A DNA stretch of 45,100 bases from a virus: positions 1 to 45,100 of the IMG/VR virus record IMGVR_UViG_3300009150_000005; one strand, written 5' to 3'. The notes under the pieces are model-generated. The model searched no databases and had not been told where the DNA came from. It saw only the letters and a program-made list of their open reading frames with translations. This document shows, piece by piece, positions 346 to 34,661 of the stretch (positions within the stretch are counted from its first letter, which is position 1; every line of letters starts with the position of its first letter). The position numbers and the translations under genes were made by a program.

Positions 346-1320
346 ATGGCCGTTGTAACACTTGCGGATTTAGCCGCACAAGAAAAGGAACCTCTGCGCA
401 AGGTCATCATGGCTGAGCTCCTGCGACAGTCAGACCTTATAGGGGTGATCCCCTTTGAGGAAGCGAAGAGCTTCGATAGCATCTTGGTCCGGTGGAAGGA
501 TCTACCCACCGTTGCTTGGCGCAACCTTAACGAGGGATATACCGCGACCAAGGGAACGACTGAGCAGGTCACGGAGACCATCTACTTGCTAGGTGGCGAT
601 ATCGAGATAGACAGCGCTCTCAAGAAGGTCAAGAACCTACTTGAGCCCGTTGAGAAGACGCAGCGGAAGATGAAGATGGCTGCAATGGCGTACGAGTACA
701 ACGACACCTTCATCAATGGCGATCTCGCCGTGGACCCCAAGCAGTTCGAGGGGATCAAGAAGAGACTCGCCGGCATGGGCGCACGCCAGACCATTCTCGC
801 TACCGCAGCGGGGGCGACTGTGGCCACCGTTCTAGCCACCGCCGTTACCGCCAATCGCTTCATTGACGATATGCACAGGCTGGTAAGCCTGGTCGAGGGC
901 GGGGCAACGCACCTCTTCATGAACAAGAAGACGAAGTGGGGCTTTGAAGCCTGCCTTCGCAGGTCTGGGCTCCTGAAGACCACGACAGACGCCTTTGAGA
1001 GAGAGTTCAACACCTTCATGGGAGCTCTGATCGTGGATGTGGGCATCCAAGCAGACCAGTCCACCGAGATCATCACGAACACCGAAGTCGCTGCCGACGC
1101 TGGCGCGGATAGCACGTCTATCTACGCCGTCAACATGGAAGTTGGCCGGGGTTGTCACGGGATCAAGATTGGCAACATCGACATCTATGATCCCCTGAAG
1201 GGTGGTGAGAAGGAAGCCGGCCCTCAGACCCTTTTGAGGGTTGACTGGATGGTGGGTCTGGCCAACTGGTCGGACTACAGCATCGCCCGTCTCTACAACT
1301 TCGGGATGGTCTACGCCTAA
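346..1320 (+). CDS. Major capsid protein (HK97-fold likely)
   Basis: This 324-residue protein directly follows the scaffolding gene and has a good Shine-Dalgarno sequence (AAGGAAGGTG). It starts MAVVTLADLAAQEKEPLRK. A conserved-looking stretch at about residues 45-90 contains LVRWKDLPTVAWRNLNEGY and a GGDIEIDSALKK segment, of the type seen in HK97-like capsid proteins of podoviruses and some siphoviruses: an N-arm, then an extended E-loop-like region and an alpha/beta P domain. The central NGDLAVDPKQFEG and ATHLFMNKKTKWG stretches also fit. Length and position between scaffold and cement genes support the assignment. The fold itself is inferred. Confidence 0.87.
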   Translation: MAVVTLADLAAQEKEPLRKVIMAELLRQSDLIGVIPFEEAKSFDSILVRWKDLPTVAWRNLNEGYTATKGTTEQVTETIYLLGGDIEIDSALKKVKNLLEPVEKTQRKMKMAAMAYEYNDTFINGDLAVDPKQFEGIKKRLAGMGARQTILATAAGATVATVLATAVTANRFIDDMHRLVSLVEGGATHLFMNKKTKWGFEACLRRSGLLKTTTDAFEREFNTFMGALIVDVGIQADQSTEIITNTEVAADAGADSTSIYAVNMEVGRGCHGIKIGNIDIYDPLKGGEKEAGPQTLLRVDWMVGLANWSDYSIARLYNFGMVYA

Positions 1321-1816: not shown

Positions 1817-2563
1817 GTGGGTATAAGCATAGCGGTCCCGTCGTTAGATCTACACGCGGTTCGCTTGGCACGCTATATGATCGCAACGAAGATGCCTTCT
1901 GGCGTGGAGGTTATCTGGAAAGAGTACAGCCACGCCCTTGCGATTGACAAGGCCCGCAATAACATCGTCCACAGCTTCTTAGATCAGGAGGTGAAAACTG
2001 ATCGGCTCTGGATGGTGGACGACGATATGATCTGGGACCCGGATAGCGTAGGCAGGCTTTACGAGAGAGATTTGGACGTAGTTGCCGCGCTGACCTGGAC
2101 TAACGCCGTCCCGCCCTGCCCTACCATTTGGCAGGATGAGCGAGAAGTTGATGGGACATACTTCTATACACCGGCTGCCTTTGAAACCCTACAATGGATG
2201 ATCGACCACGATCACAATTTCGTTAGCAATGATCCAGTAGTTTTGCCCCCCTCAGACAACGACTTGGTAAAAGTCGATGCAACGGGGGGCGCTTTTATAA
2301 TGATAAAACGAAGGGTCTTGGAGGCCATAGAGCCGCCCTGGTTTGAAGGGGATGTGAATGGCTTTGGGGAAGACTTCTATTTCTGCCGGAAGGCAAGGGC
2401 GGCAGGGTTCAAGGTGTTCGTTGACCGGTCAGTGATCGTTAGTCACCAGCCGAGATTTGTCTTGGGGCCGCTTACCTTCAGAGCGTTTATGGGAGTTACA
2501 AGAACAGCAACGGCAGAGGAAAAGGAAAAGACTTACGAGGCAGCGAGGAAGCATGAAGATTAA
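1817..2563 (+). CDS. Glycosyltransferase family 2-like protein (GT-A fold)
   Basis: This 248-residue protein uses a GTG start at 1817, eight bases after AAAGGAG. It has an acidic metal/nucleotide-sugar motif at residues 68-70 (WMVDDDMIW), matching the DxD region of GT-A enzymes. A GGAFIMIKR segment, a GEDFYFCRKAR segment (the usual place of the acceptor-activating acid) and a later SHQPR with a possible metal-binding His follow. The enzyme would transfer a sugar from a nucleotide donor to an unknown acceptor in the cytoplasm. It opens the cargo block after the terminator. Its stop overlaps the next start. Donor and acceptor cannot be told from sequence. Confidence 0.8.
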   Translation: MGISIAVPSLDLHAVRLARYMIATKMPSGVEVIWKEYSHALAIDKARNNIVHSFLDQEVKTDRLWMVDDDMIWDPDSVGRLYERDLDVVAALTWTNAVPPCPTIWQDEREVDGTYFYTPAAFETLQWMIDHDHNFVSNDPVVLPPSDNDLVKVDATGGAFIMIKRRVLEAIEPPWFEGDVNGFGEDFYFCRKARAAGFKVFVDRSVIVSHQPRFVLGPLTFRAFMGVTRTATAEEKEKTYEAARKHED

Positions 2564-3002
2564 CTTGGGCGGTGGTTACATCGACATTCCTGGCTATCTG
2601 AAACTCGACAAGCAGCCCGAGTGGGGAGGAGTGAGGGCCAACGTCATAGCAGACCTGGAGGAAGGGCTACCGTTTCCAGATCGTAGCATAGACGTCCTCA
2701 ATGCTTCCCACATCTTCGAGCATATCCGGAACTTTATACCCCTGATGAACGAGTGCTGGCGAGTCTTGAAGGATGATGGGTTCATGATGGTTACTGTTCC
2801 TGCCTTCCCGTCCGATGGGGCAATAGCTCCACCAGACCATGTTCGCTATTTCGTGCAAAAGACATTCCATTGCCTTGAAAAGGAGTTTTGCCCCCCAGAC
2901 CGAAAGGCATGGGCCGTGGAGGTGAATGTGCAATTTATCTCCCCCCTATTTGCGGAGGCAGATACAGAGGCCATCTTTGCCCTTATGAGGCCGGTGCGAT
3001 GA
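2553..3002 (+). CDS. Class I SAM-dependent methyltransferase (type 11-like)
   Basis: The likely start is ATG 2553, inside the end of the preceding gene, because the protein then begins MKINLGGGYIDIPGYLKLD, the classic N-terminus and SAM-binding loop of small phage and polysaccharide-locus methyltransferases. The PFPDRSIDVLNASHIFEHI segment and CWRVLKDDGFMMVTVP (post-motif III region) follow in order. At 149 residues it is short but has the expected core. A longer start at 2457 would add a basic, unconserved extension made of the overlapping gene. Between glycosyltransferases, a sugar or glycan O-methyltransferase is the natural guess; the substrate is unknown. Confidence 0.82.
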   Translation: MKINLGGGYIDIPGYLKLDKQPEWGGVRANVIADLEEGLPFPDRSIDVLNASHIFEHIRNFIPLMNECWRVLKDDGFMMVTVPAFPSDGAIAPPDHVRYFVQKTFHCLEKEFCPPDRKAWAVEVNVQFISPLFAEADTEAIFALMRPVR

Positions 3003-3832
3003 GGACACTGAGGACACCGCCCACGAAGGCAGTGCCCATCGTCATCGTGAGTTACAACACGCTTTTCCACACCAGGCGGTGCATAGAGAGTATCCTGGTC
3101 CATTCTCATTACCCTCTTAGCATACCATACCGCTTGATAGTGGTGGACAACGGATCAACGGATGGGACAGTGGAGTATTTAGAGAGTCTAGGAGATGCCG
3201 TTGCGTGGTTTACAGAAAAGGAGAATCTGGGCTGGGTCAAGGGAGTCAATAACGGGCTGGCTTGTGCATTGTACTCGGGACTAGACCCAGACTTCATCGT
3301 GTTCGGCAACAGCGATATAGTGATCCCTGGCGAACCCTGGTGGCTTGACAGGTACATCAAACCCTTGGAGGAGGAGGGGATAGGGGCCGTGGGGCCTACG
3401 AGTAACTTCGTGATGGGCTTGCAGAAGTATGAGTTCAACGCACAAATGCCACCGATTCACGAAGTCAAGTACCTTATCGGGTTATTCGTGGCGATGAAGG
3501 CGAAGGTTGCAAGGGAAGTCAGCCAATTAAATTTCGGCAACTTCTTAGACGAGCGCTTTGGACTGGGTGGAAATGATGACCTTGACTTGTCTATCAGGAT
3601 TCGCAACCTGGGCTACAAGCTACTGGTCAACCGGAAAGCCTTTGTGTATCACTATGGATCTAGGACTTTGCTTCAGAAAGATGTGTTTGATGGGCGGGAG
3701 GGGATTGCAAAAGAAGAAGCCCGCACTAGAGCCCTTCTGGTTGAGAAATGGGGAGAGAAGACGGTGGACGAACTCTTTATAATGCCCCCGGGCGTTCAGG
3801 GAAGGCTAGGAGGGGCAGGAGAGGGGATATGA
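2999..3832 (+). CDS. Glycosyltransferase family 2 (rhamnosyltransferase-like)
   Basis: The start at ATG 2999 overlaps the methyltransferase stop (ATGA). The 277-residue protein shows nearly all GT2 landmarks in order: IVIVSYN, LIVVDNGSTDGT, ENLGWVKGVNNG, a DxD-equivalent FGNSDIVIP, and GGNDDLDLSIRIRNLGYKL followed by YHYGSRT. This is the arrangement of inverting GT-A enzymes that build O-antigen or capsule glycans. The upstream in-frame region from 2888 lies inside the previous gene and is not needed. No membrane anchor is seen. Acceptor and donor are unknown. It is the clearest glycosyltransferase of the block. Confidence 0.92.
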   Translation: MRTLRTPPTKAVPIVIVSYNTLFHTRRCIESILVHSHYPLSIPYRLIVVDNGSTDGTVEYLESLGDAVAWFTEKENLGWVKGVNNGLACALYSGLDPDFIVFGNSDIVIPGEPWWLDRYIKPLEEEGIGAVGPTSNFVMGLQKYEFNAQMPPIHEVKYLIGLFVAMKAKVAREVSQLNFGNFLDERFGLGGNDDLDLSIRIRNLGYKLLVNRKAFVYHYGSRTLLQKDVFDGREGIAKEEARTRALLVEKWGEKTVDELFIMPPGVQGRLGGAGEGI

Positions 3833-4353
3833 GCCTATTGACCTTCGTGACTAGGAGTTGTAACCGGCCTGTCATGCTACAGAGGGGCAAGGACTCCTTG
3901 ATTGACCAGACAGACAGTGATTGGGAGCAGATTATCTTGGTGGACGATGGGGCGCGTGGGATCGAGTACGCCAATGGTATGCTCGTCGCCAATAAAGAGC
4001 AGGTCAAGGGGCAGTACGTTTACATTCTGGACGACGACCATAGGCTAATCGTGCCCGACTTCGTAGCGGGGATTCGCGCAATCGTTGAGGCATCGACTCC
4101 CGATGTCGTCATGGTCAAGGCGCGCAAGAGGGTACATGGCCTTCTTCCCCGGAAGTGGGGATCGCATCCCCAGAATGGCTCGGTAGACACGGCCAACTTT
4201 GTAGTGAGGAACGAGATATGGCAAGAGCACATTGGGGCCTTTCATCGCCCTAGCTCTGGCGACTTCTACTTCATCAACGAGATCTTTTCAGATCCAAAGT
4301 TGAAGGTCGAATGGTGGGATTACATCGTCTCAGAGGATATGCGAGATGACTAA
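3829..4353 (+). CDS. Small glycosyltransferase family 2-like protein
   Basis: This 174-residue protein starts at ATG 3829, coupled by ATGA to the preceding stop. It opens with LLTFVTRSCNRPVMLQRGKDSL and has the GT2 core: IILVDDGARG and YVYILDDDHRLIVPDF, the latter giving the DxD metal site. It is shorter than typical GT2 enzymes and lacks an obvious C-terminal acceptor-binding extension, so it is either a minimal enzyme or specialised. Its stop overlaps the next start at 4346. Function by fold is well supported; specificity is not. Confidence 0.8.
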   Translation: MSLLTFVTRSCNRPVMLQRGKDSLIDQTDSDWEQIILVDDGARGIEYANGMLVANKEQVKGQYVYILDDDHRLIVPDFVAGIRAIVEASTPDVVMVKARKRVHGLLPRKWGSHPQNGSVDTANFVVRNEIWQEHIGAFHRPSSGDFYFINEIFSDPKLKVEWWDYIVSEDMRDD

Positions 4354-5251
4354 GCTATTGGTCTTTACGACAGCCAGAATGTCATCGTCTCGATGCCCGG
4401 GCAAGGTTGCCTATGATCTGGGGGGCAAGCCCTCCTTCGTCCAGTTGCTTGAGAGAGCGCAGCAATTCATACCCGATGCTGACTACTACTTTGTTGCCAC
4501 TACCGTCGAGATCGTGGACGACCCCCTAGTGCTTTTGGCACGGGCGTATGGCTACGAGGTCTTTCGTCACTCGGCTGCGTCTACCCCGATACGCCAGTTG
4601 GCGTTGTTCGATCACCTGGGACTCAAGGATGAGGATATCTACATTCCAGTTTCCTCAGACACGCCTTTCGTAATTTGTGATCATCTGCCTTTCTGCAAGA
4701 AGGTGGTCGAGGAAACGGGGCTTGACACCCGGCCAGTGCTACGCAACGGGACTCTTGCGAAGGCGGTACACGCGAGTACTGTATGCCATGTGGGGCACTA
4801 TCGGAAGCTAGTACCGCTGGGATGGCGAACCACGTGGAAGGATGGGGCTACGGGCTTCAATGTTCATCCCTTACCCCAGGCGTTTGTCGAGTTTCCCGCG
4901 AAGTATCAGGAGCCTTGGTCCTGGAACCCCTTATTCATAGACATTCCCTTGCAGGCCCTACAGATTAAGGGGATTTACGAACTGCTCTACAAGGGCAGAC
5001 CCATCGACATCTTCGACTTGCCTGCGCTATTTGAGGAGAGGCCGTTTCTGGCCCATCTCGTCGATCCCGACGTAATCACTAACGCCGGGGGCATCATGCC
5101 TCACGGAGCGCATGGGTATGATATACAAGAGGCTCTGAACGTGACCGACTCAATAATCGTCAAGTGGGATGGGAAGGAGGGCCTATGTAATCTGGGCGCG
5201 TCGGACGAAGATCAAAGCCCCGAAGGAGGTACGCGGTGCGAAAGCTACTAA
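4346..5251 (+). CDS. Cytidylyltransferase-like sugar nucleotidyltransferase (SpsF/CMP-sugar type)
   Basis: This 301-residue protein starts at ATG 4346. Its N-terminus, VFTTARMSSSRCPGKVAYDL, matches the nucleotide-binding signature of SpsF, NeuA and KdsB-type cytidylyltransferases (usual form: xxARMGSxRLPGKV), and PVSSDTPFV fits the metal/nucleotide aspartate loop. Such enzymes activate an acidic or other sugar as a CMP-sugar for glycosyltransferases. Its presence among the glycosyltransferases suggests the phage helps supply its own activated donor. The last part overlaps the next start, and the C-terminal ~50 residues look unconserved. The sugar is unknown. Confidence 0.78.
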   Translation: MTKLLVFTTARMSSSRCPGKVAYDLGGKPSFVQLLERAQQFIPDADYYFVATTVEIVDDPLVLLARAYGYEVFRHSAASTPIRQLALFDHLGLKDEDIYIPVSSDTPFVICDHLPFCKKVVEETGLDTRPVLRNGTLAKAVHASTVCHVGHYRKLVPLGWRTTWKDGATGFNVHPLPQAFVEFPAKYQEPWSWNPLFIDIPLQALQIKGIYELLYKGRPIDIFDLPALFEERPFLAHLVDPDVITNAGGIMPHGAHGYDIQEALNVTDSIIVKWDGKEGLCNLGASDEDQSPEGGTRCESY

Positions 5252-6639
5252 CTCTGTTGTTGATTTTCTCTATGCTAGTCATGTCGTGTGCGAAGGCCAC
5301 ACCCTCCCCACCACCGCCTGAGGTGGTGGCCGCGGTTCCCGTGGAGGAGGCTGAAGAGGAGGAAGCTGCCCCCGAGCCCTTTACGCTCGTCTGGTACACC
5401 GGCTACGCAGCGGGTTGTGTAAACCAGGATTATTGTGTGCCAGAGTGTGAGGGGCCTGGATGTCTCGGGGATTGGCAGATCGAGCATTTCCACGCCGCAT
5501 ACCCACAGTACGATCACGTCACCATCGAGTACATCTACCAGACGGAAGTCGGAGGGATGCTACCACCTGATCTCGACACGCTCATTGCTGCCGGCGAGAC
5601 GCCTAGTATCATAGACGGCTATGGTGGCCGCATTGGTCGGTATGCAGAGATCGGGCTTAACTTCGATGACTACCTAGACGACGACCAGAAGGCCGCCTTT
5701 CTCAACTACGAGGGTATGTTCTTCGGTGACACGATGCCGATGATTGAGGCTTCGGGTAACTTTGCTTATTTCACCGTGAACGCTACTCTTGTTGGAAGGG
5801 CGTGCGCCCAGGAGGAATTTGAGTGCAGCGTCCCTGAGCCGTGGTCTCTTGTCGCCCATGACGAGTTTCTAGAGATTGGCAGGGCTATCAAGGCCCTAGA
5901 CGACGGCTCCTACCTCGGATTGCTCTTCGGAATGAACCCATCGAGCCAGCATCTTCAGTGGCTTTGGTTTGCCCAGGTTGGAGTACAGGCCTTCGAGGGC
6001 GGCGTCTTTACAGGGCTCAATAGCCCTGAGACTCGCGCCGTGATGAGGGAGCTGATCGACCTATACAACGATGGCCAGTTCATGCCGGGAGCGCCAGGTC
6101 TATGCGACGACGACTATCTGGTCTACTGGGGACCTGGTAAGATTGCCTTCGCTCCTTGGGGTCTGCCCCGTCACGCGGGTACGATGGTAGCACTCGTTGA
6201 GTCGGGTGAGCTTGAGGAGCCTTGGGAGATCGTGCCGATTCTTGGCATCCAGTTTGACGAGGACATTCAACCTCTCATGTCGGGCTCCCACTTCACAAGT
6301 GCCAGCATAGTCACGGCAGCGACCCCGGAAGAACACCGGAAGGCAGCCGTTGACTTTGCCCACTTCACCATGATGCTGAATTGGGTGCGGTGGGTAAATC
6401 CGGGCACACTCCCTGCGACGGTCCCTAGTCAAGAGAAACTGAGGACGGGAGATCTCGGGCCGGCCTATGAATACATTGCAGAGCATGGCCTAGCAGACGT
6501 GGGTGTTTACAACCCGCATTACAACGAGATCCGTTCTCTCTTCGCTGATCTGGTCGCCGCTATGACAGCCGGGGTGAAGGCTCCGGTGGAGGCGATGTTC
6601 ACGCTTGAGCAGATTGGTGAGGCGTTGATGGAAGAATGA
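5236..6639 (+). CDS. Sugar ABC importer solute-binding lipoprotein (CUT1-like)
   Basis: This 467-residue protein starts at GTG 5236, preceded by AAGGAGGT at 5223-5230. It has a lipoprotein signal: positive n-region, hydrophobic core and lipobox LVMSC with the lipidated Cys at 18. A Pro/Glu linker follows (to about residue 48), then an extracellular solute-binding domain of the MalE/UgpB type, seen in LDTLIAAGETPSIIDGYGG, FEGGVFTGLNSPETRAVMRELIDLYNDG and GPGKIAFAPWGLPR. Length is normal for the family. Four cysteines lie at about residues 61, 67, 71 and 76, an unusual cluster. It is followed directly by two permeases, so it would capture a sugar outside the membrane. Ligand unknown. A phage gene of this kind is very unusual. 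Confidence 0.9.
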   Translation: MRKLLTLLLIFSMLVMSCAKATPSPPPPEVVAAVPVEEAEEEEAAPEPFTLVWYTGYAAGCVNQDYCVPECEGPGCLGDWQIEHFHAAYPQYDHVTIEYIYQTEVGGMLPPDLDTLIAAGETPSIIDGYGGRIGRYAEIGLNFDDYLDDDQKAAFLNYEGMFFGDTMPMIEASGNFAYFTVNATLVGRACAQEEFECSVPEPWSLVAHDEFLEIGRAIKALDDGSYLGLLFGMNPSSQHLQWLWFAQVGVQAFEGGVFTGLNSPETRAVMRELIDLYNDGQFMPGAPGLCDDDYLVYWGPGKIAFAPWGLPRHAGTMVALVESGELEEPWEIVPILGIQFDEDIQPLMSGSHFTSASIVTAATPEEHRKAAVDFAHFTMMLNWVRWVNPGTLPATVPSQEKLRTGDLGPAYEYIAEHGLADVGVYNPHYNEIRSLFADLVAAMTAGVKAPVEAMFTLEQIGEALMEE

Positions 6640-7499
6640 GTAAACGACGAGGTTGGTGGGGGCTACTCTTTGTGGCCCCCGCCCTCCTGGCCTTATTCGT
6701 CTACTTCCTACTGCCTATAATTTACAGTGGGAACCTGAGCTTCTATAAAGTTGAGCTTACTGGGAGATCCTGGGTTGGACTTGACAATTACTTGGCGCTG
6801 GGAGAGCAAGATCAGTTATGGAATGGCATCAGGGTCTCCGCGAAGTTCCTAACCGCATATCTGTTCTTTAACATCGTCGTCGCATACCTACTAGCCATTG
6901 GGTTGAGCAAACTAAGCCCACGATTCTGCGGGGTGATGCTGACCTACTACCACATACCCTGCCTGATCTCCGCGATTTCGAGTATCGCGGTCTGGCGGTG
7001 GCTCTACAGATACCCGGGAGGAGGCCTCAATGAAATCCTTGAGGCCCTACACCTGCCGACAATCATGTTCCTGGGGAATCCAAGAATCGCCGTTTGGGCA
7101 ATTTGCTTCGTGATGATGGGTGGCATGGTGGGCAGTTCCACGGTTCTCTATGCAGCGACCATAGGCCAGGTCAACAAGGAGTTGCTTGCCGCTGCCCGGC
7201 TAGACGGAGCGAATGAGTGGCAGGTGATCTGGTACATCCTTACTCCGCTAACCCAGCCGGTGAGGATATACATTTTGATAGCGAACTTAATAGGGGCGAT
7301 GAATGTCTGGGAGCATCCATTCTTCTTCACTGGAGGTGGGCCCTTTGGCTCCACTCGGACGATGATGTTTGAGATCTACTATACTGCCTTTGTCAAACAT
7401 AGGTTTGGACTGGCTTCAGCCTTGACGATGGTGATGATGGGCATAGCTCTGGGGATCGGGGCTGTGTCAATGCGAAGGGTTAGGAGTTACCTTGGGTAA
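6636..7499 (+). CDS. Sugar ABC importer permease 1 (MalF/UgpA-like)
   Basis: This 287-residue membrane protein has about six hydrophobic segments, starting with a first helix at residues 8-30. The cytoplasmic EAA loop, which docks on the ATPase, is intact at about 182-209 (LLAAARLDGANEWQVIWY, then ILTPLTQP). It matches the binding-protein-dependent permease family in length and topology. The start overlaps the stop of the binding protein (ATGA at 6636), so the two are translationally coupled. It would pair with the next gene to form the membrane pore. No frameshift or loss of the docking loop is seen, arguing for a working protein. Confidence 0.92.
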   Translation: MSKRRGWWGLLFVAPALLALFVYFLLPIIYSGNLSFYKVELTGRSWVGLDNYLALGEQDQLWNGIRVSAKFLTAYLFFNIVVAYLLAIGLSKLSPRFCGVMLTYYHIPCLISAISSIAVWRWLYRYPGGGLNEILEALHLPTIMFLGNPRIAVWAICFVMMGGMVGSSTVLYAATIGQVNKELLAAARLDGANEWQVIWYILTPLTQPVRIYILIANLIGAMNVWEHPFFFTGGGPFGSTRTMMFEIYYTAFVKHRFGLASALTMVMMGIALGIGAVSMRRVRSYLG

Positions 7500-8349
7500 G
7501 AAAATTGTCTTGATGGCCATGATCGTTCTGCTGGGGACGTGGTTTGTCTTTCCCGCGTACTTCACGTTGCAGACATCGTTTATGACGAAGTTCGCTCTTG
7601 TCAATCCCCTTACTGCGTGGCGGCACAGCTCCTTGGGGAATTGGAAGATGATGCCGTGGGGCTTGCTAATGGGCTGGCTGAGAAACAGCCTGGTCGTTTG
7701 TGGATCACTTTCTGTACTCACGTTGCTGGTTTGCGTCGCGGCAGGATACGGCTTCGCAAAGTTCGACTTCCCGATGAGGGAACCGCTATTCTGGCTCTTT
7801 CTTTTAGCGATGATAGTTCCTGGCTCCCTGCTATTCTTGCCGAGGTATCTCATCACAAGGGATATGGGGATTTTGAACACCCATCTAGCGATGATACTGC
7901 CGCTGATCCTTAGCCCGGCGTTGGTCTTCCTTTCCCGGCAATACCTATTATCTATCAGCGACGATCTACTGGATGCGGCGCGGGTGGACGGTGCATCGGA
8001 GGCCCAGATCTTCCGCTACATCGTACTCCCCCTAGTCAAGCCATTGATCGTTCTCGCGGTGCTTGGGGGGTTTAGCGCCGGCTGGGGAGACTTCATGTGG
8101 CAGTACATCGTGGCTAGGAATCGGGAGATTCAAACGATGACCGTGGGACTGGGACTGTTTATGATGGGCTCTGCGGGTCCTTCGGGTTCGAGTCTGTCGC
8201 CAGAGTTCACGGCCTTGCTTCGGCAAGGCGTATCCTTGGAGGGTATGCAGGCGGTGGCGGCCATACTACAATCTGCTCCAATGCTGGCGCTCTTCGCCTT
8301 CGGCCAGAAGTATTTTTTGCAGGGCATCAAGCTGGGGGCTCCGGAATGA
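7492..8349 (+). CDS. Sugar ABC importer permease 2 (MalG/UgpE-like)
   Basis: This 285-residue protein has six predicted membrane spans and an intact EAA docking loop at about residues 159-184 (LLDAARVDGASEAQIFRY, then IVLPLVKP). The best start is TTG 7492 (MGKKIVLMAM), overlapping the preceding stop; an ATG lies a few codons downstream. It ends GIKLGAPE, the usual type of C-terminus for MalG-like permeases. It completes a binding protein plus two-permease importer, yet no ATP-binding subunit is encoded anywhere in the genome. A shared host ATPase (as MsmX/MsmK-type proteins provide in some bacteria) would be needed. The next gene starts inside its stop region at 8346. Confidence 0.92.
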   Translation: MGKKIVLMAMIVLLGTWFVFPAYFTLQTSFMTKFALVNPLTAWRHSSLGNWKMMPWGLLMGWLRNSLVVCGSLSVLTLLVCVAAGYGFAKFDFPMREPLFWLFLLAMIVPGSLLFLPRYLITRDMGILNTHLAMILPLILSPALVFLSRQYLLSISDDLLDAARVDGASEAQIFRYIVLPLVKPLIVLAVLGGFSAGWGDFMWQYIVARNREIQTMTVGLGLFMMGSAGPSGSSLSPEFTALLRQGVSLEGMQAVAAILQSAPMLALFAFGQKYFLQGIKLGAPE

Positions 8350-9047
8350 AATTTGTGAACGAAGCTCTGAGAAACAAGCACAAAGGCGACCCCGTGTGGG
8401 TTATGGGTGCTGATCCCACGGTGGTCACGTATCCCAAGGACTTCCTAAGCGACAAGTTATCAATCGTCATAGGAAGCGCACAACGCATCTTCCAGAACGG
8501 AACCTACAACTACAACAACGAGTCTAGGACTATCTTGCCACACGCGAAGCTCATACCCGATTATCTAGCGAAGGCACAGCTCTGGGCGTTTCCGTTCTAC
8601 GGTAAGGATGAGGACCAGTCCAGGGCGCTCATTGAAAGGTTGCAGCCAGTAGAGGCGTGGTATCTGGACTACAAGCCCTACCCGCCACGCGGACATAGGC
8701 CGGACGCACTGACGGACGTGGGACGCGATGCGATGATTGCGTTGGTCGGAGCCGCGCACCGGGGCGAGGCCGGCCCCTATGGAGGGTTCGGAACCTGCCT
8801 GCATTGTGCTCTCTATGTGGCAATCATCATGGGGTGCGACCCGATCAACATTGTCTGTTGCAGCCATCGGGTTATAGGCGATCACTGGAAGCCTCCAGAA
8901 CTAGGGGGGAGACCCATGACCCCCGAGCAAATCGCCCACTCAGAAAAGAACTGGTGTCGGTATGCCGAAGGGGGTACGCAGGCGATCATGGAGGGCTGCA
9001 GAAGAGAAGGAATAGAGGTCATTCGATGGCAACAACAACCGCAATAA
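8346..9047 (+). CDS. DUF115/sialyltransferase-like protein, putative
   Basis: This 233-residue protein starts at ATG 8346, overlapping the permease stop. It has the layout of DUF115/MptE- or GT42-like Rossmann proteins: an N-terminal strand with a nucleotide-binding-type turn (DPVWVMGADPTVV), then a later helix-strand unit (TCLHCALYVAIIMGCDPINI) resembling their SAxxAIxLAxxMGxxxIYLVG signature, followed by a His-containing loop (CCSHRVIGDHW). Some members transfer sialic or pseudaminic-type sugars from CMP donors, which would fit the SpsF-like enzyme upstream. The match is by pattern and could be wrong; a plain unknown function is the fallback. Confidence 0.5.
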   Translation: MKFVNEALRNKHKGDPVWVMGADPTVVTYPKDFLSDKLSIVIGSAQRIFQNGTYNYNNESRTILPHAKLIPDYLAKAQLWAFPFYGKDEDQSRALIERLQPVEAWYLDYKPYPPRGHRPDALTDVGRDAMIALVGAAHRGEAGPYGGFGTCLHCALYVAIIMGCDPINIVCCSHRVIGDHWKPPELGGRPMTPEQIAHSEKNWCRYAEGGTQAIMEGCRREGIEVIRWQQQPQ

Positions 9048-9727
9048 TCGTACACTACTGGCTGGAGAGGACTAGCCACATCGCTAGGATTGTACGCGAT
9101 TTACACCAGGGGAGTGTTGTGCCAGATAAGATCATTGTCTTCAACAACAACAAAAAGATTGTCCTGCCCGCAATGCCTGGGGTGGCGGTCGTGAACTCGA
9201 CCCACAACTTTCACTGCCCTGTAAGACACGCAATAGGGCTAATAGCCGGTACTGAGCTCTGCCTGTTCGTGGACGATGATGTCACGCTACGGCGCGATGG
9301 CTTAGAGTATCTACTCACGGCGCACGACATCTTCCCCGAAGCCATACTAGGCTTTGAAGGAAGAAAGTTGGGCTCAGACAAGAACGCTCCTTACACTTCT
9401 GGCCACAGAGTTCACAATGTTGCCGTGCCAACATCAGTAGATATAGTTTTGGGCAGGGTACACTTCTGCAAGACCAGTAAGCTGATAAGCGCCTTTGCAA
9501 CGAGGCAAGGAATAGAAAGTTCCTATGGGGAGGATGACATCTTCTTGTCGCTCTCGAACGATGCACAGAACTATGTACTCCCATCTAAGATGATAGAGCT
9601 TGGCGAAAAGGGAGTCGGATTGTACCATCGAGCCAACCACTATTCTCTGAGAAACGAATGTTGCCTTGGGGTTTTAGAGCTTAGGAGGAGGCAGGATGAG
9701 CAAGGAATATCTGGCCGAAACGGTTAA
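9026..9727 (+). CDS. Glycosyltransferase family 2-like protein
   Basis: With the ATG at 9026 (inside the end of the previous gene) the protein is 233 residues. It starts MATTTAIIVHYWLERTSHI, has a GT-A core with IIVFNNN, a DxD-type metal site in CLFVDDDVTLRRDG, and SSYGEDDIFLSLS in place of the usual acidic acceptor site, followed by YHRANHYSLR with possible metal-binding His. An upstream in-frame extension to 8804 is only the other gene read in a second frame. It ends the cargo block; its stop lies inside the start of the zinc-finger gene at 9696. Confidence 0.75.
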   Translation: MATTTAIIVHYWLERTSHIARIVRDLHQGSVVPDKIIVFNNNKKIVLPAMPGVAVVNSTHNFHCPVRHAIGLIAGTELCLFVDDDVTLRRDGLEYLLTAHDIFPEAILGFEGRKLGSDKNAPYTSGHRVHNVAVPTSVDIVLGRVHFCKTSKLISAFATRQGIESSYGEDDIFLSLSNDAQNYVLPSKMIELGEKGVGLYHRANHYSLRNECCLGVLELRRRQDEQGISGRNG

Positions 9728-10848: not shown

Positions 10849-11436
10849 ATGTTTATTTGCCCGGGGTGTGGCGAGGAAGGGCAATACTATGCCAAGGGGC
10901 TATGCAAAGTGTGCTATAACCGCCAGTGGGATAGGGCTAACCCAGATAAAAAGAAGGCCCGGGACTGCGGCTGGCGAGAGAAACACAAAGATCACATAGC
11001 GGCATACAATAAGCGCTACTACGAGGAGCATAGAGAGGAAAGTTTGGCCTATCAGCGTCAATATCGGCAAGAGAATGGCGAGAAGGTGGCGGCTAGCAAT
11101 CGCCGCCACTACCAAAAACATCGAGGGATATATGCTACCAATAGTAAGCGCTGGGTCAAGGAGAACCCCGAAAGGGCCGCGGCCATTAAGGCACGCCGCA
11201 GGGCCAGAGAAAAGAGGGTCCCTGATACACTAACAACAGAGCAATCCGAGCGACTTCTTACAATTGGCCAAGCCATGTATCCAGGCGAGAAACTGCACCT
11301 CGACCACATCGTGCCTATAAGCAGGGGTGGGGGAACCACAAGGGCAAATATTCATTTCATCCCCGCAACGGTCAATCACCGCAAGGGAAACAAGTTACCG
11401 CAAGAGACTTACAGACAAGAAAGGCTGGGGGCATAA
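10849..11436 (+). CDS. HNH endonuclease (homing type) with zinc knuckle
   Basis: This 195-residue protein starts with a zinc-binding knuckle (C4, C7, C19, C22; CPGCGEEGQYYAKGLCKVCY). A basic, repeated helical stretch at 30-120 contains several YxxRYYEEHREE-like units that probably bind DNA. The C-terminal HNH core is KLHLDHIVPISRGGG with D152-H153, N167, and N176-H177 plus the closing RKGNK. The core residues all look present. Free-standing HNH genes of this type are often homing endonucleases between structural genes; it sits between adaptor and nozzle genes with only three and one bases of spacing. Confidence 0.9.
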   Translation: MFICPGCGEEGQYYAKGLCKVCYNRQWDRANPDKKKARDCGWREKHKDHIAAYNKRYYEEHREESLAYQRQYRQENGEKVAASNRRHYQKHRGIYATNSKRWVKENPERAAAIKARRRAREKRVPDTLTTEQSERLLTIGQAMYPGEKLHLDHIVPISRGGGTTRANIHFIPATVNHRKGNKLPQETYRQERLGA

Positions 11437-20355: not shown

Positions 20356-20568
20356 ATGGCTCTTAGGGCCGAGATTGTTTCTCTGGGCGACAAGCTCAAC
20401 CATACTAGGCTTGACCTGGAGAATCTGCGGAAGACCAAGGCGGAGACAGAGGACGAGATAGAGCGCCTTGAGAAATTGCAGGACACCCGAGCGTCTGTCC
20501 TGCGTAGGTTAAGAGAGATAGGCGAGGCGCTACAGCCACTAAAGGAGGTAGAAGGGGATGCCGATTAG
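20356..20568 (+). CDS. Small coiled-coil protein
   Basis: This 70-residue protein is almost wholly a heptad-like coiled coil (LRAEIVSLGDKLNHTRLDL, then ENLRKTKAETEDEIERLEKL). It has AGGAGGAGGAAG before ATG 20356 and overlaps the next start by 11 bases. No function can be given; pairing with the preceding helical protein is plausible. Confidence 0.72.
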   Translation: MALRAEIVSLGDKLNHTRLDLENLRKTKAETEDEIERLEKLQDTRASVLRRLREIGEALQPLKEVEGDAD

Positions 20569-21736
20569 CGATCTAGATGGACGCTATCGACCCCAGCGGT
20601 TAGGCAAGGTGAGGCTGGGCCGGAAGAAAGAAAGGAAGACGAAGGGCGGCAAGGTCGTGGAGATCCCGTATGCCACGCCCTATTTCGTGATGGACGATAT
20701 GCCCCCGGAGATCCAGAATGAGTACGGGGAGGAACCGACTACCCTCAAGATCGAGTTTCTGTTCAATACCATTCCTCAGGTGTTTCCCCACTTCCATCAA
20801 TACTATCTAGCCCGTGGCCTCCGTTGCATGGGCGATGGGGAGATCGTGCTTTACCGGACGGCAGGCACGGTGGAGGAGCCCGAGGTCTGTATCAAGGACG
20901 CGGTTCTGTTGGTCTCTGCCTCTATGGCAAGTGAGGAGTGGACCGAAGAATACGGGACCAACGAGGAGGCGGGTAACACTCTTCGCTGCCTGGGCTTCGA
21001 GTGCCCATCGAGCAAGCCGGGGGGCTGTCGCCCCCGAGGCCGGCTATGCTTTGCGATCCAGGGGCATGAGGCTCTGGGTTATTACGAGATGGGAACTGGT
21101 GGCATCAATGCCATCGCTGGCATCGTTGGCCAGTTCCAGCTGGCCTTCAGCATCTTCGGCCACATAGACTCGATCCCGTGGAAGCTGCATCTTCGCCCCG
21201 AGACCGTTCAGGCAAATGGCAAGAGCAGAAACATCTACGTGCCCTGGATTGAGATAGATCCCGCGTGGCTTCAGAGGCACGTCCACTCTAGGGGAGCCCA
21301 CCTGAGAGCGATAGAGGAGAGCAAGCGGTCCGACATAGCCGATCTGTACGGCAGGGACGACGTGGAGGACCTGGACCATGACAGAACGCCCCAGCATCTC
21401 CTAGAGGCTGCTAGCGAGGAGGACTACAGACCTACGTTGGAGGAAGTGGAGGCTGTCGCGGCCCCCGCAACGGGCTTCAAGGAGGCCGTAGAGGAAGCCC
21501 AGGAGGTTATCGAGGGGGAGCTGGAAGGCCCCGAAGTGACTACCAAGAAGGGTAACATTTACGAGCGCCTGATGAAGGATGCCAACCACAACCTCAAGAA
21601 GCGGGGGTACAAGGCTCGCTACACCGGGGTCGAAGAGGTACGTCAAGCGATGGACGACGGAGGCATCATGGGAAGGCTGGTGCTCGATAAATACCTAGAC
21701 TATCTGAGCATAGTGCTAGAGGTAAAGGAGAGGTAA
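20558..21736 (+). CDS. RDF/Gp3-like phage protein
   Basis: This 392-residue protein begins with a basic GKVRLGRKKERKTKGGK segment, then IPYATPYFVMDDMPPEIQNEYGE, a zinc-type region (CLGFECPSSKPGGCRPRGRLC) and GYYEMGTGGINAIAGIVGQ. This order matches the recombination-directionality-factor-like family typified by phiC31 Gp3: GRIRLG start, cysteine cluster ending CxPxGRL and a TGG segment. In phiC31 the protein turns integrase toward excision. No integrase is present here, so another DNA-related role is likely. The C-terminal third is acidic and variable, ending in a helical domain. Confidence 0.65.
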   Translation: MPISDLDGRYRPQRLGKVRLGRKKERKTKGGKVVEIPYATPYFVMDDMPPEIQNEYGEEPTTLKIEFLFNTIPQVFPHFHQYYLARGLRCMGDGEIVLYRTAGTVEEPEVCIKDAVLLVSASMASEEWTEEYGTNEEAGNTLRCLGFECPSSKPGGCRPRGRLCFAIQGHEALGYYEMGTGGINAIAGIVGQFQLAFSIFGHIDSIPWKLHLRPETVQANGKSRNIYVPWIEIDPAWLQRHVHSRGAHLRAIEESKRSDIADLYGRDDVEDLDHDRTPQHLLEAASEEDYRPTLEEVEAVAAPATGFKEAVEEAQEVIEGELEGPEVTTKKGNIYERLMKDANHNLKKRGYKARYTGVEEVRQAMDDGGIMGRLVLDKYLDYLSIVLEVKER

Positions 21737-25445: not shown

Positions 25446-26309
25446 ATGTGGCCCAAGAAGGCGATTGATTGGATAGAGAACGGGACGGCGTTTGTCTCGG
25501 TTCCGTTTACATGGGAACTGCCTCAAGCCTATTCCCGGTGTATCTTTCTCCGAGAGCAAGGCTATAAGGTTAGGGCTGGGGGGCCAGCGGTGGGCTTGAT
25601 GCCGGACTATCTTGCAAGTGTGGCGAGGATCGGTGGCCAGGTGGATGCTCTAAGGCATCATCACCCTGATGCCACCTTCACAAGCCGGGGGTGCATAAGG
25701 CGGTGTGAGTTCTGCGCGGTCCCCCAAATAGAGGGTGATCTAGTGGAGCTGGCGGAGTGGGAGGTTAGGCCCATTGTTTGTGATAACAACCTTCTGGCCT
25801 GTAGCGACACTCACTTTGATAAGGTGATTGACTCGCTGAAGCCGCTTGTGGATGTAGACTTCAACCAGGGTCTAGATGCGAGGTTGCTAACGGAGTACCA
25901 TGCTACGCGGTTGGCGGAGCTGGATCTGAAGGTCGTGCGGCTTGCATGGGACCACACTGGTTCGGAGCGATGGGTGATGAAAGCACTTGAGATGCTGAGG
26001 GGTGTGGGCATAGGCAAGATGAGGATACGGGTGTACGTATTGCTCAATCACAAAGACACCCCCGGGGATGCTCTCTATCGGCTCCAGACTCTCAAGGACT
26101 GGGGTGTGCGGCCCTTCCCAATGCGCTACCGGCCCTTGGATGCGCTGGAGAAAAACGCCTATATCTCCCCGCATTGGACAAAGGAACAGATCTATCAGGT
26201 CATGGAATACTGGACCCAGCTTAGGCGCTTTGAGCACATCCCCTTTGAGGAGTTTGATGCCCATAGCCGACATTTACATCGGGAGAAGGGGCAGGAGAGG
26301 CTATTTTGA
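25446..26309 (+). CDS. Radical SAM protein
   Basis: This 287-residue protein carries the radical SAM cluster motif CIRRCEFC (C83, C87, C90), which binds a 4Fe-4S cluster and SAM. The later FNQGLDARLLTEYHATRLAE, VRLAWDHTGSERWVMKAL and RIRVYVLLNHKDTPGDAL segments fit the half-barrel of Elp3/MiaB-like members. The N-terminal 75 residues could be a small cobalamin-binding-like domain. The substrate is unknown. Radical SAM genes of unknown role are found in some environmental phages. It lies in the early region after the 28-residue protein. Confidence 0.88.
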   Translation: MWPKKAIDWIENGTAFVSVPFTWELPQAYSRCIFLREQGYKVRAGGPAVGLMPDYLASVARIGGQVDALRHHHPDATFTSRGCIRRCEFCAVPQIEGDLVELAEWEVRPIVCDNNLLACSDTHFDKVIDSLKPLVDVDFNQGLDARLLTEYHATRLAELDLKVVRLAWDHTGSERWVMKALEMLRGVGIGKMRIRVYVLLNHKDTPGDALYRLQTLKDWGVRPFPMRYRPLDALEKNAYISPHWTKEQIYQVMEYWTQLRRFEHIPFEEFDAHSRHLHREKGQERLF

Positions 26310-30670: not shown

Positions 30671-31117
30671 ATGGTGGACGAACGTGGACGAACGTGGACG
30701 AAGTGGTCAAGAGAAAAGAGGGAGGAGGTTTTGGATGCTCTTGCGTTGACCGGCAACATTCGGGCTACCGCGAGGGAGGCGGGAGTCCCCAAGTCCACTG
30801 TACACAAATGGTCTAACCATTACGGAGAGGAAATCGCAAGGCGACGGCAAGAGATGTTGGGTGGCCAGCATGAGGCCAGGGTGAAGGACGTGATTGAGTG
30901 GACTCCCAAGATAGGCCAGGAGATGCGGAGGATTCTTGAGGATCTACTAGTGCAGGTTCAGGCCAAGATGGGAGACAAGAAGGTGAGCCTTTATGCCCTG
31001 GTCTATGCCTTTTCTAAGATCTTCGAGAAGCACGAACTGATAGAGGGAAAGCCGACTGAGCGCAAGGAGATCAGTGTGTTAGAGAAGGTCATGCAGATGA
31101 TGGTGGAGGATGAATGA
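30671..31117 (+). CDS. terS: Terminase small subunit
   Basis: This 148-residue protein has a helix-turn-helix at 28-50 (GNIRATAREAGVPKSTVHKW) at its N-terminus, then a long helical region (about 85-120) for oligomerisation and an acidic C-terminus for docking on the large subunit. This is the classic layout of small terminases, which pick out phage DNA for packaging. Its last bases overlap the start of terL. The start is ATG 30671, although the upstream Shine-Dalgarno is weak. The first 11 codons contain three 10-bp DNA repeats. Confidence 0.86.
   Translation: MVDERGRTWTKWSREKREEVLDALALTGNIRATAREAGVPKSTVHKWSNHYGEEIARRRQEMLGGQHEARVKDVIEWTPKIGQEMRRILEDLLVQVQAKMGDKKVSLYALVYAFSKIFEKHELIEGKPTERKEISVLEKVMQMMVEDE
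30674..30703. repeat. Three tandem 10-bp repeats in the 5' end of terS
   Basis: GTGGACGAAC occurs twice in a row, followed by GTGGACGAAG. Ten is not a multiple of three, so the repeats encode different residues in each unit (VDERGRTWTK) and are likely to exist for the DNA and not the protein. Packaging sites (pac) are often inside or beside terS, so this is a candidate binding site for the small terminase. Confidence 0.8.
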
Positions 31118-32562
31118 AGTGGCCTTCTTGGAAGCGCAAGGGACAGTTGTTCTCGGTGCTGGGCTACTCGCCCACGCAAGCCCAGGAGCCGGTTCACCAG
31201 AGCAAGGCAAGGATTATCATCGTTGGTGGTGGGGAGCGGGCTGGCAAGAGCAAGATAGCGGCGATGGAGTGTGTAGCCCGCATCTTCGCTTGTGATGGTA
31301 GGCCGATCTTCTTGGTAGGGGAGAAGTACGAGAGATGCGTGCCGGAGTTTGATTATATCAGTGAGGCCTTGCTGGACTTAGGGCTGGTCACGGTAAAGGA
31401 TATATCGAGGCCGGCAGACGGGCAACAGAGATGCACGATCAAGGTTAGAAGACCGCACCTTAACACCACAATAATGACGGTAAGCGCGGTGAAGGGGATG
31501 ACGGCGGTCCGGGCCTCCGGGAGGGCTCCTGCGTTGATCTTGATGTGTGAGGGGGGGCTGATGAGCTACGAGGTGGAACTAGCCTGTCGGGGTCGGCTGG
31601 CAGAGGCGAGAGGGGCGCTGATAGTGACGGGTTCTTTTCCAGACGATGTTGGCTGGATGGCCCAGAAGTATGAGGACTACCAGCATCCAAACAAGGAGAT
31701 GGGCGAATCCTTCTCCATCCCCTCTTGGAGCAACACGGCGATCTACCCTGGAGGCCGTCAAGACCCGGAGATCCTGGCAGTTGAGAGCGCGTACCCGGAG
31801 CTAGACTTCCTTCGGTTTATTGGAGCGTTGCCCCAGCCACCGGCCACCATCGTCTATCCAGAGTTCCGCTACTCAATGCACGTACCGGGCACGGTGAAGT
31901 TCGATCCAGATGAGCAGGTGTGGCTGGCCATAGACCCGGGGTATCGAGGAGCCTATGCGGTGATAGCTTACCAGTTCAGCGGTCCGTATGTCTTGGCAAT
32001 AGACGAGGTCTACCGCTGGGCAGCAAAGCATGGCAAGGGGGCATACGGGGAAGCAGTGATCGAGGAGTGCATGAAGAGGGAATGGTGGCCTAACGTGATA
32101 GACGGGGTGATAGATATAGCAGGGCTTCAGCATCACGGGGCGGAGAGCCAGGTGGAGATATGGGCAGCTAAGACCATGGGGAAGCTACCGGCTAGGCCAG
32201 GGCCAGACGAGGCGCTACGTCTCAAGTATCGGAAGGTCATTCCCTTTGAGGGGCGGCAGAGGCTACGTACCTTCCTGGCAGATCCAGCGAGTGGGGAAGC
32301 ACTGTTACGATTGTCTACTAAATGCGAACACTTTGCCCGGGAGTTTGGGCTGTATAGGTTCAAGGAGATTGTAGAGGGGAGGCCGATAGACGAAGAGCCT
32401 ATCCCCAGAGATAACCATGCTATCAAGGCGACAGAGTATCTACTGTTCTTCCTCTATGGGCGGGTGGAGTGGCCAACGCGAGAGGTAGAGCCACGGAAGG
32501 ATCGCTGGGAAGTGTACGGTCATCAGCGGCGCAGGAAGGACTACAGACGATACGGCGAGTAA
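31114..32562 (+). CDS. terL: Terminase large subunit
   Basis: This 482-residue protein is the packaging motor and nuclease. The ATPase has Walker A GGGERAGKS (38-46) and a Walker B-type strand LILMCEG with E146, followed by the coupling motif region LIVTGSF. The RNase H-like nuclease has LAIDPGYRGAY (D274), VIDIAG (D334) and RDNHAIKATEYLLF (D433), so all main acidic residues appear present. It starts at ATG 31114, overlapping terS. It would act at the portal to pump DNA into the procapsid and cut it. Length is normal for the family. Confidence 0.95.
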   Translation: MKWPSWKRKGQLFSVLGYSPTQAQEPVHQSKARIIIVGGGERAGKSKIAAMECVARIFACDGRPIFLVGEKYERCVPEFDYISEALLDLGLVTVKDISRPADGQQRCTIKVRRPHLNTTIMTVSAVKGMTAVRASGRAPALILMCEGGLMSYEVELACRGRLAEARGALIVTGSFPDDVGWMAQKYEDYQHPNKEMGESFSIPSWSNTAIYPGGRQDPEILAVESAYPELDFLRFIGALPQPPATIVYPEFRYSMHVPGTVKFDPDEQVWLAIDPGYRGAYAVIAYQFSGPYVLAIDEVYRWAAKHGKGAYGEAVIEECMKREWWPNVIDGVIDIAGLQHHGAESQVEIWAAKTMGKLPARPGPDEALRLKYRKVIPFEGRQRLRTFLADPASGEALLRLSTKCEHFAREFGLYRFKEIVEGRPIDEEPIPRDNHAIKATEYLLFFLYGRVEWPTREVEPRKDRWEVYGHQRRRKDYRRYGE

Positions 32563-32571
32563 TTATAGTTT

Positions 32572-32666
32572 GTATGGCCGAAGTGGCATGGGAGGCGACT
32601 ATGGCCATACAGAATATAATGCCCAGAGGTTATAAATGCGAATATAACCCGTAGAAGTTATATTCG
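32572..32666. promoter_or_regulatory. Two inverted repeats in the terL-portal gap
   Basis: The 126-base gap holds two perfect dyads: GTATGGCC/GGCCATAC (32572-32579 with 32603-32610) and CGAATATAAC/GTTATATTCG (32639-32648 with 32657-32666, eight-base loop). A TATAAT-like sequence lies at 32615-32620 but no -35 box fits. They could form an RNA leader or protein sites that adjust portal expression. Confidence 0.55.
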
Positions 32667-32688
32667 ATGAGGAGTAGGGAGGCATAAG

Positions 32689-34482
32689 ATGGTAGAGAGT
32701 AAGCAACCCACCAAAGAGCAGATCAGCGACAGGATGAAGTTTGCCCACGGGCTCTACGACACGGCTAGGGCTCACATGGACGAGGTGGAGGACCTGTTCA
32801 CGGGGGCATACGTGCTGAAGAAGGAGCAGGAGGATCAGGAGGTCGATCTAATCAAACCTCCCCGGGCTATGGCGATCCTGGGCAAGTTCGTCTCCCGGCT
32901 GGCTACCAGGGCAGAGGTAGGCATCCAGGTGGTCCCCCGGACGCTAGGCGATGCAGAGGAGAAGGTCTGCACTACACTAGAGCGTTGGCTGGAAGGCTAT
33001 AGATTCCAGGCAGAGTACGAGGCGATGAACCCGATCTACCGTTACTTCGTGACCTGGTTCTGCCTACGGGGGCGTGGCTGTCTGGAGTTGAGGTTGCGGC
33101 CTCAGTATGCAGAGGGGCAGAAATTCCAGGTGGTGAGGCCCATTATCGATGACCCCAAGAAGATCTCTCCCGTCTATGGCGAGACCGGCATCATGTTCTA
33201 TGCCAAGAAGTACAAGCGGTCTGCCTGGGACCTGAGGCAGGAGTTGGGTGAGAAGTTTGCTGGGGGCAAGGATCTGGTGTGGCAAATGCCCTCAGGCTTG
33301 GAGGCGGAAGATGCGACGAAGGAGCTGGAGATAGAGGAATACTGGGACAAGGACTGGCATGCGGCTTACATAGAGGGCGAGGAAGTCTATCTCAAGAAGA
33401 ATCCGATGGGCTTTGTGCCGCTGGTTGAGGCGAAGGCGATGGATACTCCCCTGGAAGCGGCAGAGTGGGCATCGCAATCTATCCTCTACCCCCTGATGGA
33501 TATGCTCAAGAAGCAGGCAGAGTTGATGAGCAAGGGGATCACTGGCCTAGAGGTCTTCTACTACCCGTGGGTGTTGGTGAGAGAGCCAGGTGGAAGATCC
33601 TACATCATGGAGACTACACCGGGCACCATCCAGAGCATCCATCCAGACGCAGAGATCACCGTGCTTAACCCCACCCCTAACCAGCAGCTACTTCACCAGT
33701 TGGGTATGATGGTCCAAGATGAGATCAACCTATTGGCGCTGCCGGAGATCTCCTGGGGCGCAGAGCCAGGGACCTTGCAGAGTGGGCGTGCCATCTCCCA
33801 GGTTCTAGCACAGACCCTAGATGTGATTGAGGATAAGAGGCAAAACCTAGAGCGCACGTTGGGCTGGCACTTTGGAGGCGTGCTGCGGCTGGTGGAGCAG
33901 TACGCGGAGCTGGACAAGAATAAGAAGTTCTCGGTCATGGCCATACCAGAGGAGAAGGGACGCAAGCGCCGGGACCTGGTATCCATTGGGAAGGAAGAGA
34001 TAGATGGCCATTACAGGGTGATCGTCAACCTCTCACCCCCGATGCCAGAGGACAAGATGATGCGCTACGAGATAGCCAGGAGAGCGAGTGATCTGGGCAA
34101 AGACGGTTATCCACAACTGGATGCCCGCACGATCCTCACTGATGTATTGGAGGTAGGCAATCCCGACGAGGTAAGGGAGCGCATCGAGAAGCAGGTGGTG
34201 GAGCGTATGAGCCCTGAGATCATGGCATATAAGAAGAGCAAGTATCTAAAGGAGTTTTGCGATGAGGAGGGGATCAGCTACGAGGAGTTTATGACGATGG
34301 CGCAGGAGGGGATGCCCGAGATCCCTGGAGGCATGGGTGAGATGGGTGGACAGCCCCCATCGCCAGGGATAGAAGGTGAGATGGGTAGGCCGGGGCCTGG
34401 AGAGTTACCACCCGAGGAGTATGGACCTGGCCCTGAGACTCCTGGGCCTGAAGAGGCAGCGTTGATAGGAGCTCCGGCATGA
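32689..34482 (+). CDS. Portal protein
   Basis: This 597-residue protein follows terL. The N-terminal helical part (LYDTARAHMDEVEDLFTG) leads to a mixed alpha/beta core with typical portal elements, such as FVTWFCLRGRGCLELRLRP (wing strands) and PLMDMLKKQAELMSKGITGL (long helices). An EISWGAEPGTLQSGRAISQ loop is followed by more helices. The C-terminal 80 residues are acidic and Pro/Gly-rich (PPSPGIEGEMGRPGPGELPP) and probably disordered. Twelve copies would form the ring through which DNA passes. Length and order suit podovirus portals. It ends in ATGA overlap with the next gene. Confidence 0.9.
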   Translation: MVESKQPTKEQISDRMKFAHGLYDTARAHMDEVEDLFTGAYVLKKEQEDQEVDLIKPPRAMAILGKFVSRLATRAEVGIQVVPRTLGDAEEKVCTTLERWLEGYRFQAEYEAMNPIYRYFVTWFCLRGRGCLELRLRPQYAEGQKFQVVRPIIDDPKKISPVYGETGIMFYAKKYKRSAWDLRQELGEKFAGGKDLVWQMPSGLEAEDATKELEIEEYWDKDWHAAYIEGEEVYLKKNPMGFVPLVEAKAMDTPLEAAEWASQSILYPLMDMLKKQAELMSKGITGLEVFYYPWVLVREPGGRSYIMETTPGTIQSIHPDAEITVLNPTPNQQLLHQLGMMVQDEINLLALPEISWGAEPGTLQSGRAISQVLAQTLDVIEDKRQNLERTLGWHFGGVLRLVEQYAELDKNKKFSVMAIPEEKGRKRRDLVSIGKEEIDGHYRVIVNLSPPMPEDKMMRYEIARRASDLGKDGYPQLDARTILTDVLEVGNPDEVRERIEKQVVERMSPEIMAYKKSKYLKEFCDEEGISYEEFMTMAQEGMPEIPGGMGEMGGQPPSPGIEGEMGRPGPGELPPEEYGPGPETPGPEEAALIGAPA

Positions 34483-34661
34483 TAGAAGACGTGACGATCA
34501 TTGAGACTGGCATTGTCGAAGACGATGACGACGAGGACATCTATCTGCGGATTGAGACGAAGAGAGACGAGCCAGTGGAGTGCTATATGCAGCGGCATGA
34601 AGCCCTGGAGGTCATCAAGGCTTTGGTGATCGCGCTCCTGGCGTTGGAAGAAGGGGACTAA
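34479..34661 (+). CDS. Small acidic protein
   Basis: This 60-residue protein overlaps both neighbours (ATGA with the portal stop, TAATG with the giant gene). It has a run of Asp/Glu near the start (VEDDDDEDIYLRI) and a C-terminal hydrophobic helix (ALEVIKALVIALLALEEG). No family recognised. Its coupling suggests a role linked to portal or giant protein, for example as a chaperone. Confidence 0.55.
   Translation: MIEDVTIIETGIVEDDDDEDIYLRIETKRDEPVECYMQRHEALEVIKALVIALLALEEGD

Follow-up and report, generated by a model that had tools for sequence, protein, structure and literature searches.

Three adjacent genes of a phage genome were found to encode a CUT1-type solute-binding lipoprotein (SBP) and two permeases, with no ATP-binding subunit of their own, and together they probably form an accessory importer that is powered by a shared ATPase of the host. 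As a module, the three genes would supply the half of a CUT1-type ABC importer that determines its substrate. Outside the cell, an oligosaccharide-like solute would be captured by the lipoprotein and passed to the permease pair, whose EAA loops would dock an orphan UgpC/MsmX-type ATPase, one that would already serve the numerous CUT1 importers of the host itself. ATP hydrolysis by the host enzyme would drive uptake, and the infected (or lysogenic) cell would gain a new or stronger uptake specificity, the imported solute feeding either energy metabolism or the adjacent phage-encoded glycan pathway.

The Importer Genes and Their Genomic Setting

The window analysed here is the whole of the virus record IMGVR_UViG_3300009150_000005, 45,100 bases in length. 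Since the first 32 bases recur as the last 32 (an unstranded repeat, 1–32 and 45069–45100), the record looks complete and is probably a circular or terminally redundant genome. A major capsid protein gene (346–1320, plus strand; phrog_212, 1.9e-54) provides a viral hallmark upstream of the importer, and the terminase large subunit and portal genes lie at 31114–34482 on the same strand. The importer genes themselves are situated inside a glycan cassette among the virion genes, with the capsid upstream and structural genes downstream. Their location among late virion genes counts against the proposed role, as this would be a strange stage at which to begin supplying a cell with nutrients. Elsewhere in the window, a 3,244-aa ORF (34661–44395) follows immediately after the portal gene, and a radical SAM protein (25446–26309; phrog_9298, 6e-39) is encoded outside the virion gene blocks. 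A Gp3-like protein resembling recombination directionality factors is encoded at 20558–21736 (PF18897, 7e-29), despite which no integrase was found among the window ORFs scanned.

The sequence-only reading had described three adjacent, intact genes at 5236–8349, and this description proved correct. All three are on the plus strand. The SBP (5236–6639, 467 aa) is of the CUT1/cluster-D type and matches the Pfam family SBP_bac_8 (PF13416) with an E-value of 1e-6 and 29.2 bits, slightly over the 27-bit cut-off. It is followed by permease 1 (6636–7499, 287 aa; AlgM1/SugA/UgpA-like; PF00528, 3.5e-10) and permease 2 (7492–8349, 285 aa; AlgM2/SugB/UgpE-like; PF00528, 2.3e-13). Two different BPD_transp_1 permeases thus stand side by side, as a CUT1-type ABC importer requires. 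The SBP gene starts with GTG and is preceded by a strong ribosome-binding site (GAAGGAGGT), while permease 2 starts with TTG.

The stop/start overlaps that had been noticed among these genes, and with the genes on both flanks, are real and range from 4 to 16 bases. The upstream SpsF/KdsB-like nucleotide-sugar transferase (4346–5251, plus strand; PF02348, 5e-8; KdsB-like in NCBIfam), hereafter the nucleotidyltransferase, overlaps the SBP gene by 16 bp; the SBP gene overlaps permease 1 by 4 bp (ATGA), permease 1 overlaps permease 2 by 8 bp, and permease 2 overlaps the next gene by 4 bp (ATGA). Further upstream, 1817–4353 (plus strand) holds three family-2 glycosyltransferases and a methyltransferase (2457–3002). 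The downstream genes (8346–9727, plus strand) comprise the one coupled to permease 2 (8346–9047), which has no assigned function, and a GT64-like gene. The codon use of the cassette resembles that of other genes of the same phage. Promoter and terminator scans revealed nothing above chance.

Recurrence in a Second Phage and Selection

When 2.9 million viral contigs were scanned, a single further carrier of the same three genes emerged, the 23.3 kb contig IMGVR_UViG_3300028822_000279, in which their order is the same. The proteins of the two phages are 88% (SBP), 91% (permease 1) and 92% (permease 2) identical, and the DNA is 84% identical over 5359–8349 of the window. In the second contig, the importer set has the portal gene on one side and the capsid gene on the other. 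Viral hallmark genes thus enclose it in both phages, as expected of an accessory module. No match was found between the two phages for portal, terminase or capsid. Outside the importer, what they share is limited to the nucleotidyltransferase (45% identical), an HNH gene (also 45%) and faint similarity in a methyltransferase and a glycosyltransferase. The HNH-endonuclease-like gene (10849–11436 in the window, 4747–5355 in the second contig) occupies a different position relative to the importer in each. Scans of the viral contigs with the SBP, permease 1, permease 2 and the nucleotidyltransferase pair gave only this second carrier, and scans with the window capsid, the terminase and the window nucleotidyltransferase alone gave no related contig, all of these scans being pattern-limited.

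Comparison of the two phages with YN00 gave a dN/dS of 0.085 for the SBP (dN 0.070, dS 0.83), 0.070 for permease 1 (dN 0.043, dS 0.62) and 0.039 for permease 2 (dN 0.040, dS 1.05), values which rest on one sequence pair, whose divergence may in part be older than the arrival of the genes in phages. Purifying selection on all three importer genes is strong. That the set recurs in two unrelated phages, and is kept by such selection in them, argues that the importer is selected and is no accident. In the nucleotidyltransferase next to it, the synonymous sites are saturated between the two phages. Since this neighbour is saturated and only 45% identical, we conclude that the importer set was exchanged as a module, and more recently than the adjacent gene.

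These data also bear on the view that the block is functionless host DNA, brought in by mis-assembly or transduction. The sequence-only reading had held that the genes belong to the phage and are not a chimeric join. Both statements were borne out: the first by an independent phage contig, purifying selection and phage-like codon use, the second by the same block occurring with different flanks in two assemblies, which makes a chimeric join very unlikely. The combination of absence from relatives with identity to one host genome was looked for as far as possible and was not encountered. What speaks for host DNA is that short database records labelled as phage contain similar permeases and that one of those examined is clearly host DNA: in OR847034, glutamate synthase genes adjoin the permeases, so that it looks like bacterial chromosomal DNA. 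With virion genes on both sides of the block, no close host sequence, and the divergent second contig, dN/dS and codon use described above, a chimera or transduced host DNA was ruled out, and we consider the functionless-DNA view extremely improbable. The records that match permease 2 were considered as true phage carriers and rejected, since those examined are unverified, unannotated contigs. OR847034, OR846992, MT835755 and MT835541 are such records matching the importer permeases, and they could mislead surveys of phage genes.

The shared gene order touches on the purpose of the importer. In both phages, it runs methyltransferase, glycosyltransferase, nucleotidyltransferase, SBP, permease, permease, with the first two genes weakly alike. 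The importer might therefore bring in sugar for the adjacent SpsF/KdsB-like transferase and the glycosyltransferases, which would decorate the virion or the cell. Such a supply line fits the conserved glycan-gene-to-permease order and the location among virion genes, and it would be a special case of the accessory-importer explanation, compatible with it. However, the nucleotidyltransferase (45%) is far more diverged than the importer (88–92%), and because of this difference the two need not share a sugar. CUT1 systems, moreover, usually serve catabolism. As a specific account, the supply line is therefore unlikely.

The Missing ATPase and the Docking Loops

The sequence-only reading had stated that no ATP-binding subunit is encoded, and a PF00005 search of the whole record agreed: at E ≤ 1, there was no match in the window or in the second phage contig, while the same search found matches in 14 of 14 control genomes. 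Having no ABC ATPase of its own, the phage set cannot be classed as a self-contained CUT1-type ABC importer. It has the composition of a shared-ATPase CUT1 set, namely an SBP and permeases with no ATPase gene nearby. Among bacteria, the absence of an ATPase beside CUT1 genes is the usual design: an ATPase-like ORF lay within 4 kb of the permease pair in 6 of 89 cases and was absent in the other 83 of 89.

The sequence-only reading had proposed that the phage adds specificity and borrows a shared host ATPase. The UgpC model NF008653 was passed by 53 of 60 Chloroflexota genomes, and for 24 of the 25 strongest Chloroflexota ATPases checked, flanks reaching up to about 1.5 kb were free of CUT1 permeases. 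The UgpC/MsmX-type ATPases of this phylum therefore look orphan, and they are near-universal in it. Since Chloroflexota are a plausible host phylum (see below), a shared host ATPase is realistic. It was reported that multitask ATPases are interchangeable between species and even phyla, and can energise foreign CUT1 importers (PMC7658222). However, E. coli MalK and YcjV were unable to replace MsmX (PMC7658222), so docking of a host ATPase on the phage permeases is not guaranteed. Thus the realism of the idea stood, and the docking step itself is one that we infer.

That step would depend on the EAA loops, which had been called complete. Both are indeed present: the loop of permease 2 (DAARVDGASEAQIFRYIVLP; 7972–8031, plus strand) is near-canonical, but that of permease 1, the predicted ATPase docking region (AAARLDGANEWQVIWYILTP; 7188–7247, plus strand), is slightly off, as it ends in TP instead of LP, so that calling both loops complete goes somewhat too far. 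This ending would count against docking of a host ATPase. In sequence searches of the PDB, permease 1 matched AlgM1 and SugA, and permease 2 matched AlgM2, SugB and MalG; the best NCBIfam model for permease 2 was UgpE (2e-25, below the model's cut-off). AlgM1/AlgM2 (4tqu) and SugA/SugB (8ja7, 7cad) are the best solved sequence relatives of the phage permeases, yet they are distant. Both pairs belong to bacterial importers that have been characterised and have ATPases of their own.

The same loops could serve a different end. As a decoy, the permeases would hold the shared ATPase of the host idle via their EAA loops and so stop the infected cell's own CUT1 sugar uptake, the SBP being secondary. 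The EAA loops are strongly constrained, and one ATPase on which many importers depend would make an efficient target in the host. A decoy, however, could do without a binding lipoprotein, whereas the SBP here is intact and constrained as given above, and both permeases are full length, which makes a decoy very unlikely.

The Binding Protein

A CUT1-type ABC importer requires an extracellular carbohydrate-type SBP with a lipobox or signal peptide, and the phage protein is of this kind. Its lipobox, VMSC (residues 15–18, with Cys18; 5278–5289, plus strand), is followed by a P/A/E-rich linker (also described as P/A/T-rich) that resembles those of Chloroflexota SBPs. The SBP profile had no match at E ≤ 0.01 among PDB sequences. 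The AF2 model of the protein is moderate (pLDDT 66, pTM 0.68), and its best matches in the PDB are carbohydrate-binding proteins, with a Z of 25 and an rmsd of 3.4 over 353 residues along the mature length. The predicted fold is that of a CUT1-type sugar-binding protein. Near-equal structural matches bind glucooligosaccharides, sulfoquinovosides, dinucleotides and glycerophosphocholine. A sugar may be the substrate, but UgpE/UgpA-like and nucleotide-binding relatives stand close as well.

The SBP also contains a four-cysteine insert, CVNQDYCVPECEGPGC, at residues 61–76 (5416–5463, plus strand), which is conserved in both phages. Its pattern was present in both phage SBPs and in 0 of the 107 bacterial SBPs compared, and the mature part of the phage protein has 7 Cys against a bacterial mean of 0.87. 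The insert may form a disulfide or metal knot. An unusual insert in a lipoprotein encoded among surface-glycan-type genes could also point to a surface role, in which no net transport would take place and the lipoprotein and its membrane partners would instead mask or alter a phage receptor (superinfection exclusion) or act as solute sensors. Phage-encoded lipoproteins are known as exclusion factors. Those known, however, are small and require no permease pair, whereas here the SBP is coupled to two permeases that are themselves conserved. A surface role is accordingly judged quite unlikely.

Relation to Known Systems

The closest parallels in design are AraNPQ or GanSPQ with MsmX in Bacillus subtilis, and MsmK in streptococci. 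They likewise consist of an SBP lipoprotein and two permeases with EAA loops, and obtain their ATPase from elsewhere. Those systems are encoded on the chromosome, and both their sugars and their ATPase have been identified, whereas the present set is phage-borne.

Phage-borne ABC import genes are already known (pstS, pstSCAB, ugpE). The published phosphate importer genes of phages include PstS of cyanophages as well as pstSCAB and phoU-pstBACS clusters (PMC10987575). These likewise encode parts of an ABC importer, and PstS alone must use host permeases and ATPase. They belong to the phosphate family, however, and the complete clusters include the ATPase pstB, whereas the present set is CUT1 and consists of the SBP and both permeases with no ATPase. 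Single ugpE and ugpB genes were also reported as phage auxiliary genes (PMC10987575), which places a CUT1-family permease or SBP in viral contigs. Those are single sequences, in contrast to a coupled SBP-permease-permease set that recurs in unrelated phages. The new element is the ATPase-less CUT1 set in a phage: no report of such an SBP-permease-permease set in phages, or of one common to unrelated phages, was found in the open-access literature searched.

If the accessory-importer explanation is true, the shared host ATPase would be a socket for viruses, and three specificity genes would suffice to rewire uptake by the infected cell. This would be a cheap route for viral reprogramming of carbon uptake, and the nutrient import encoded by phages would reach beyond phosphate to the CUT1 family. 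At the bench, uptake would be predicted to depend on a UgpC/MsmX-type ATPase. A bolder version can be offered tentatively, as a possibility that we hold with some doubt: a mobile 'half-transporter', made up of nothing but the specificity parts of a CUT1 importer, is traded by unrelated phages, the orphan ATPase of the host acts as a universal socket, and the Cys-rich insert of an SBP that evolved in phages sets a ligand that the importers of the host do not serve.

Origin and Possible Host

No close bacterial source of the importer was found among the bacteria searched. Among 400 Chloroflexota genomes, nothing matched the SBP at E < 1e-8, and 73 genomes of the class to which genome G005 belongs gave no match at E < 1e-5. 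In a GTDB genome scan, relatives of permease 2 were mostly 30–40% identical, with a maximum of 43% over a partial segment. The best permease 1 scores, 157 bits in Bacillota and 149 bits in Chloroflexota, are too close to separate donors. In a tree built from 91 permease pairs, one branch of 1.7 substitutions per site is common to the two phage sets, whose grouping with Chloroflexota and with two MAG sets of Bacillota is weak. Because this branch is very long and the SBP insert is unusual in its cysteines, the function of the phage SBP and permeases may have shifted.

A prophage-like region of the Chloroflexota genome G234 encodes a terminase 34% identical to that of the window (194 bits, against 94 for the best isolated phage) and a capsid 31% identical. 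Its order is like that of the window: terminase, an ORF of about 600 aa at the portal position, a very large ORF, capsid. From these likenesses, and that of the SBP linker, Chloroflexota would be a plausible host phylum, and all of them are best taken as a hint that falls short of proof. In a Chloroflexota prophage-like region (L129:858–7913), a 2,351-aa ORF stands at the place that corresponds to the 3,244-aa ORF of the window. CUT1 permeases were also found beside prophage-like genes in another genome, G404 (L131, 5832–7681, minus strand). Located past an amidase-like gene and encoded on the opposite strand, they resemble host DNA and were rejected as a phage-borne set. CUT1 permeases adjoining prophage-like genes in this manner offer a possible route by which phages could pick up such sets.
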